Positions 53,713 through 55,564 of a DNA stretch of 64,000 nt are shown here, piece after piece. The DNA is from Leptospiraceae bacterium (GTDB taxonomy: Bacteria > Spirochaetota > Leptospiria > Leptospirales > Leptospiraceae): assembly GCA_947458405.1 (NCBI GenBank), contig CANGZW010000002.1:1-64000 (forward strand), written 5' to 3'. The number at the start of each line of letters is the position of its first letter. Position 1 is the first letter of the stretch. Below the pieces are notes generated by a model. The model did no database searches and had not been told where the DNA came from. It was given only the letters and a program-made list of their open reading frames with translations. A program made the position numbers and the translations under genes.

Positions 53713-54393
53713 ATGCCAGTTGTCTCCATTCAAAAACTTAGAAAGTCCTATTTTATTTCAGATAAAGGAATTCCGATTCTATCAGATATAAATTTAGAGG
53801 TAAATTCCAGTGAGATAGTGTCAGTGGAAGGTGCATCAGGTGTAGGAAAATCTACATTATTAAATATTATTGGTGCCATGGATGACTTTGATTCTGGAAA
53901 AGTAGATGTCTGCGGTGTTGATCTTGCGAATATTTCGTCAATAGATAAAGAAAAGTTTCGGGCTCAAAAAATTTCTTTAATTTTTCAGCATCATCTCCTC
54001 TTACCTGATTTTTCTGCATTAGAAAATGTAATGATTCCTCTTTTAATTTCTGGAATGAATCCAAACAAAGCAAAAAAAGAAGCGGCTACCATGTTATCTA
54101 TGGTTGGTCTTGGAGAGCGATTAGAAAGTTTTCCCTCTCAATTGTCAGGAGGGGAAAGCGCAAGAGTAGGTGTTGCACGTGCACTCGTCTCCCGTAAGCA
54201 ATTGATTCTAGCAGATGAACCAACCGGGAATTTAGATCGAGAAAACTCTAGGAACCTTATGGCACTAATCATGGATTTACAAAAGGAATTTAAGTTTTCT
54301 ATGATTTTGGTAACCCATGACATGGAATTAGCCTCATTTGCAAATAGAAGGAATCGTATCCTTTCAGGAGAATTACAACCTATTCTTACATGA
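53713..54393 (+). CDS. LolD-like lipoprotein-release ABC ATPase
   Basis: A 226-residue ABC ATPase of the LolD/MacB/FtsE class: Walker [14 protein letters not shown], signature [17 protein letters not shown], Walker [14 protein letters not shown]-loop ILVTHDMEL. In its usual role it powers LolCE to free lipoproteins from the inner membrane. No permease gene is adjacent, so LolD versus MacB-type cannot be settled. It overlaps the next gene by 4 bases. Confidence 0.87.
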
Positions 54394-55109
54394 GTAAAGG
54401 GGCTATATGCTTTTATTGTGGAACTGGAGTTAATGAATTTATCAGGGATGGTAAATTAGGTTGCAGGAATTGCTATGAAGTAATTTTAAATTTAAAAGAA
54501 GCTAATGCACTATCACAACTTACCCACTTTGCGAATGATTCAATACTTTCAATAGAAGATTTACCGCAGACGTTTCAATCATGTATGAATTTTAATATAC
54601 CAATACGATTTCGCTTAGCACGGAATTTAAAAAATCAATTTTATACTAAATTAGAAAACTCTAATGTTTATAAAAAGTTAGAATATTTATTGGAAAATGA
54701 AGAAGTAAAAAAATTTACTAAATTTGGAAAAGTATATTGTTTTGATGAAGATCATATTCGTGCAGAATTTTTCCTGACTTCAACTGAATGTAGTAAAAAT
54801 CAATTCCCTGCAATTTTTTATGATAAAAATATATTTGATTTTAAAGATAATTTTGGCTATTTAACTTCCTGTCCTACAAATTCAAAAAAAGGGAATAAGG
54901 TTTCTGCCCTGCTAGATTTATCAAATCTAACAGAGGAAGTTAAATTGAAAATTCTAAATAATTATAAAGAAAATATTATAAAAAAAGATAATTTGAATGA
55001 ACAAATAATCTTTTTTATAAAAAATTATGATAAAAATCTTTTGATAAAATTTTTTAATATTGCTATAGAAATATATAGTTTAAAAGTAAAAATTGATTAT
55101 AATGTGTGA
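54390..55109 (+). CDS. McsA-like zinc domain fused to a shortened, degenerate McsB-like kinase domain
   Basis: A 239-residue protein. The N-terminus has four cysteines at 7, 10, 25 and 28 ([24 protein letters not shown]) like the zinc module of McsA. From about residue 70 the text follows the arginine kinase McsB and its phosphagen-kinase relatives in order: [15 protein letters not shown], then [10 protein letters not shown] (NEEDHLR motif), then [14 protein letters not shown] with Cys161 (the CPTN cysteine). The C-terminal arginine/Glu loop of active enzymes is missing, and the second Arg of the CPTN region is Lys. It is therefore probably not an active kinase. The fusion and loss were inferred by eye. 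Confidence 0.7.
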
Positions 55110-55141: not shown

Positions 55142-55456
55142 AATTTAAATTCAAATTTTTCACTTGGTTTGAGTGCGGAAATTTCTAATTACTACCAAAA
55201 CCAAGCGATATGGGATACGTAATTAGAACAATATGGATATCGAATAGAAGAAGGCTCGAGGGAATTTATTGGAACTGGATTTGGCTATGGGCATGTTTTT
55301 TCATCTGGAGTATTTTTGGGAAGTGAAATCGATTTGAGTTTATATCCAAAACAAATACACAGTAAAAAATATTCTGGCTAGGCAGATTCTAATACTTCCT
55401 TGCCCAATGCGAACCACGATATATTTGATTATTATACCAACGTCAAGTGGCACTAG
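55142..55456 (+). pseudogene. decayed outer-membrane beta-barrel gene
   Basis: One plus-strand frame reads as a beta-barrel protein (FSLGLSAEISNYYQNQAIWD, then FIGTGFGYGHVFSSGVFLGS, then ADSNTSLPNANHDIFDYYTN) but is broken by in-frame stops at 55220-55222 and 55379-55381 before a third stop at 55454-55456. No start or ribosome site is seen, so the 5' part is lost as well. No intact copy is in the window. Confidence 0.65.
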
Positions 55457-55564
55457 ATAACTATCTTTCTTCAAAAGGATTTGGTCAATTGATTATATTT
55501 TAGCTAGAATTAAATAGTTACTTATGAATAAATAAAATTATGAAAAATAAATGGAGAATTTTGT

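Follow-up and report, generated by a model that had tools for sequence, protein, structure and literature searches.

The McsA/McsB–ClpC system has mainly been studied in Gram-positive bacteria, and its kinase activity is seen as the point of the system. In the crystal structure of the B. subtilis complex, the second zinc finger of McsA and the loop after it contact the McsB kinase domain (8wtc; PMC12387690). R337 and D338 form the phospho-arginine (pArg) receptor site in the C-terminal domain of McsB (PMC8370763), and Glu32 and Glu106 mark the pArg sites of ClpC (PMC12583610). A search of the open-access literature found nothing on McsB in spirochaetes. Here we describe a gene from a Leptospiraceae bacterium, lying in a stretch of 64,000 nucleotides that was analysed as a whole (the window), and compare it with McsB across the Spirochaetota.

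The gene occupies positions 54390–55109 of the forward strand, on which all features given below also lie, and its 239 codons encode a protein of 239 amino acids. Its first codon overlaps the stop codon of lolD (53713–54393; the ATPase of the LolCDE ABC transporter), the two ORFs sharing the four bases ATGA. At the base composition of the ORF, 239 stop-free codons would occur by chance with a probability of about 2e-11, and the coding pattern follows GC1 > GC2 > GC3 (0.335, 0.243, 0.146); the last third of the gene is very A+T-rich. The first-pass annotation had proposed that a McsA-like zinc module and a shrunken McsB-like kinase domain are fused in this one chain, and profile comparisons bear this out. 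Residues 5–38 (54402–54503), with Cys7, Cys10, Cys25 and Cys28, correspond to the second zinc finger of McsA (hhalign against spirochaete McsA, 97.1% over 34 columns) and to residues 77–114 of the solved McsA chain 8wtb_B. Residues of about 70–187 (54600–54950) correspond to part of the kinase domain of McsB (hhalign against unfused spirochaete McsB, 97.8% over 136 columns), in which the landmarks FRLARN (74–79), DEDHIR (119–124) and LTSCPTN (158–164) stand in the order that had been noticed at first sight.

That the C-terminal half is related to the kinase is also supported by PF00217 (ATP-guanido phosphotransferase), which matched at 4.8e-5 and 23.3 bits against a curated cut-off of 22.4, over 45 positions only. 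NCBIfam McsB models matched at up to 1.7e-9 and the McsA model at 0.016, the McsB score of 37 bits missing the equivalog cut-off of 500 and the McsA match likewise falling far below its own. A profile built from four family-level homologues matched animal arginine kinases (4rf6_A, 1.4e-16) as well as solved McsB (8wtc_A, 6.7e-12) and, on the McsA side, the chains 8wtb_B (4.2e-6) and 8gqd_E (1e-3) of McsA–McsB complexes. Structure prediction was less helpful: an AlphaFold2 model from a three-sequence alignment reached a pLDDT of 49.5, and although arginine kinases were its top fold matches, these were not significant (E 0.065), so the model was dropped as evidence of fold. The McsA portion consists of finger 2 only, and neither the first zinc finger nor the UVR tail is present in the window protein, which thus differs in layout from two-fingered, UVR-tailed McsA; the other UVR matches of the genome belong to other genes. 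The McsB portion is indeed shrunken, being shorter between its motifs and ending near position 256 of the 342 positions of the McsB model. Elsewhere in the genome we found no second McsB-like gene, and no McsA zinc-finger region at any other place.

To judge the catalytic potential of the protein, we used the active-site set R29, R31, E122, R126, C168 and E213 in the numbering of Geobacillus McsB (PMC12387690). Five of the six are kept in the window protein, as R73 and R75, E120, R124 and C161, and the position of R177 is a Lys. The region of the Glu213 loop and the following strand IIFFIKN (54960–55050) was placed by alignment with homologues from the window's family (f1), a second sampled family of the same order (f2) and full-length McsBs; its RGxxGEG consensus is lost, and the alignment, uncertain in its placement here, puts Asn at R208 and Asp at Glu213. 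The loop had been reported at first as absent; it is better described as degenerate, since the region and its strand are present and an acidic residue stands at Glu213. The same positions read manually in the other f1 proteins, with the same uncertainty, give Asn…Asp (G004), Lys…Glu (G001) and Arg…Glu (G002), a result that differs from automatic residue calling, which assigned the window to the Glu213-to-Asp class and scored the other three as gaps. In f2, 14 of the 18 fusions keep every active-site residue covered by the alignment, R29 and R31 of several of them lying outside the scored stretch and not being counted as replaced. Judged from these alignments, the catalytic site of the window protein appears partly eroded.

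The kinase of the window protein may thus plausibly be dead, as the first-pass annotation had suggested, on account of the Lys at R177 and the lost RGxxGE consensus, although most residues of the guanidine and ATP sites are retained. It is also conceivable, but in our judgement unlikely, that the protein retains activity as a self-activated protein-arginine kinase, working with Asp for Glu213 and Lys for Arg177. Such activity would agree with the retention of the R29, R31, E122, R126 and C168 equivalents in f1, with the existence of two families (f12 and f30) in which Glu213 is replaced by Asp and the other five residues are intact, and with the R…E spacing of R208 and E213 in G002; yet the lost RGxxGE consensus, the Asn at R208, the Lys at R177 and the shortening of the whole domain speak against it, and G002 itself has lost the histidine of DEDH.

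The fusion is not peculiar to the window. All genes examined in f1 and f2, from four f1 genomes (that of the window among them) and 18 f2 genomes with Leptospira proper left out, are fused; the McsA profile scores in 20 of the 22, and the finger is visible by eye in the remaining two. In the rest of the phylum, 86 genomes were examined, and none has CxxC motifs ahead of the kinase. One McsB-like frame of 480 amino acids (G236, locus L171) has a long N-terminal extension devoid of CxxC. Most f2 members still have the first zinc finger, which the window protein and the rest of f1 have lost, and the UVR tail is lost in all fusions. The McsB match of f2 fusions stops at a point similar to that of the window gene, and the McsB C-terminal domain with R337/D338 was not found in any fused member of f1 or f2. 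Because this domain is missing throughout the fused family, the earlier suggestion that the protein reads pArg by means of the McsB pocket is unlikely and we do not uphold it.

The usual gene order in f1 and f2 is lolD–mcsAB–clpC. In f1, lolD orthologues that are 65–70% identical lie 5′ of the fusion gene, as lolD does in most f2 genomes, and the fusion is linked to clpC in 15 of 18 f2 and two of four f1 genomes. The window genome is without this linkage: its clpC is on another contig, and ClpC and ClpP are both encoded elsewhere in the genome. In other Spirochaetota, mcsA and mcsB are two distinct genes, with clpC usually next in line. Families f9 and f27 have lolD ahead of this pair, and the fused cluster thus plausibly derives from lolD–mcsA–mcsB–clpC. 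Since the same fusion occurs in f1 and f2 and the two genes are separate elsewhere, the window copy belongs, as a reduced form, to an old family of single-chain McsAB proteins, in which the finger by which McsA grips McsB is joined to a shortened phosphagen-kinase core, and whose ancestral place is between lolD and clpC.

The gene can also be lost. No mcsAB match was found in G003 and G005–G007, four genomes of the sister genus g4, though lolD and clpC are present, nor in G016, G019 and G027 of genus g12, where the loss of the fusion gene is independent; in the two g12 genomes whose loci were read, lolD is directly followed by clpC (L055/L064 in G016, L054/L065 in G019). Downstream of the window gene and outside the fusion protein, a decayed gene remnant (55142–55500) contains a 52-codon piece that matches an intact 251-amino-acid frame of G001 and has stops on both sides. 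Its other neighbour is an SDR-type dehydrogenase gene; in many relatives, clpC occupies the place of the remnant.

It might be argued that the window gene is itself functionless and decaying towards the loss seen in g4, a view with which the separation from clpC, the neighbouring remnant and the A+T-rich last third would agree. We consider this improbable. All 239 codons remain open with codon-position structure, and none of the four f1 genomes has an interrupted ORF; their homologues share invariant zinc-binding Cys and guanidine-site residues. Moreover, dN is about 3 times as high in the fusion gene as in lolD, for f1 no less than for f2, so that the window's family does not stand out by faster change; the only usable pair for the window gene itself is near saturation (dN 0.76, dS 1.14). 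The notion that the protein serves the Lol lipoprotein system instead of ClpC, which the constant and overlapping 5′ neighbour lolD could invite, is very improbable, as its homology is to a ClpC partner and LolD orthologues are kept in genomes devoid of the fusion; of the envelope context originally noted, the conserved neighbourhood of lolD stands and an envelope function does not, lolD also preceding unfused mcsA–mcsB–clpC.

We also looked for signs of a pArg system outside the fusion gene. Residues of the Glu32 and Glu106 type are retained in ClpC, a sign that was rejected as non-discriminating because genomes without mcsAB also have both. YwlE carries a Thr loop. Among the low-molecular-weight (LMW) phosphatases in the loci read, which do not include a second, shorter paralogue, a pArg-phosphatase signature was not seen and only a CxGNICR loop was present; those that were checked therefore give no independent sign of pArg turnover. 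At comparable divergence of lolD, non-synonymous change in the N-domain of ClpC is about three times faster in f1 than it is in f2 (L079, L083–L084, L086, L090 and L092 versus L066–L078), which agrees with a weaker constraint where the kinase site has eroded.

A survey of 246 Spirochaetota genomes of at least 80% completeness places these findings in a wider setting. A McsB-like match was present in 165 of them, and the active site was mapped residue by residue in 108 genomes from 30 families. Outside f1 and f2, all six residues are kept in only 6 of 86 McsBs, and at least three of the six are replaced in 57 of 86, from 23 families, with the proviso that a replacement does not by itself prove inactivity. 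The common form of McsB in the phylum (loci L010–L036 and L094–L183) hence has replaced active-site residues, a larger result than the fusion in the window. On the ClpC tree, the distribution of intact and altered states needs at least nine changes, a count that is approximate (a quick tree with open forks), sets aside genomes with Glu213-to-Asp only and, by the automatic call, the window, and includes three f1 proteins that are “altered” only through alignment gaps. Most of the strongly altered genes still lie directly 5′ of clpC. In close pairs of strongly altered McsBs, dN/dS is 0.045–0.14 in genus g36 of family f14 and 0.07–0.11 in family f22, and these McsBs are thus under strong purifying selection, maintained without a normal active site. 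In the two lineages tested, they are thus retained for a purpose other than normal catalysis, and the presence of an altered active site beside clpC in most spirochaetes suggests a role that may no longer need kinase activity.

All of these observations incline us, on balance, to the reading that the reduced single-chain McsA–McsB of the window has weak or lost catalysis, serves as a small regulator or adaptor of ClpC and is heading for dispensability. In those f2 relatives whose catalytic residues are intact, the zinc finger built into the chain could keep the kinase switched on, and the fused kinase would mark proteins for, or deliver them to, ClpC–ClpP. In the window, with R177 changed to Lys and the RGxxGE loop gone, catalytic strength would be weak or lost, and what remains could act on ClpC as a small regulator or adaptor that is nearing dispensability in its family. 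Such a non-catalytic role is feasible, given the strong purifying selection on the altered McsBs of f14 and f22. The Clp-adaptor function that had been proposed at the outset is in keeping with the lolD–mcsAB–clpC order of the relatives; against it stand a clpC that is not adjacent in the window and four sister-genus genomes in which the fusion gene is undetectable. More tentatively, we consider it possible that spirochaetes have repeatedly made McsB into a catalytically impaired but selected partner of ClpC, a pseudo-arginine-kinase, and that one order fused the McsA finger to a stripped-down McsB, of which the window copy is the most reduced. ClpC would then be regulated without arginine phosphorylation, possibly by docking on its N-domain.

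Compared with the McsBs of Bacillus, Geobacillus and Staphylococcus (NF053707, PF00217; 6fh1, 8wtc, 8gqd), the window protein shares the homology of the kinase domain and the order of the SxRxRxARN, EDHIR and TSCPTN motifs, and its relatives share the linkage to clpC. It differs from them in the shorter stretches between motifs, the degenerate RGxxGEG loop, the fused zinc finger and the missing C-terminal receptor domain. With McsA (NF053706; 8wtb_B, 8gqd_E) it has in common the second zinc finger and the CxxC…GC..CY spacing, although the finger of the fusion is covalently joined to the kinase and no fused member retains the UVR tail. The separate clusters of other Spirochaetota, such as lolD–mcsA–mcsB–clpC in G050, contain the same genes in the same order, and many of their McsBs also have altered active sites, but they encode two proteins, with a full-length McsB that includes the C-terminal domain, where the window encodes a single fused one. 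A single-chain McsAB that occurs naturally in a Gram-negative lineage offers a test of whether the McsA zinc finger alone suffices to activate the kinase. The persistence of McsB beside clpC after the loss of catalytic residues, under purifying selection where this was tested, implies that McsB may have a kinase-independent role in the control of ClpC.
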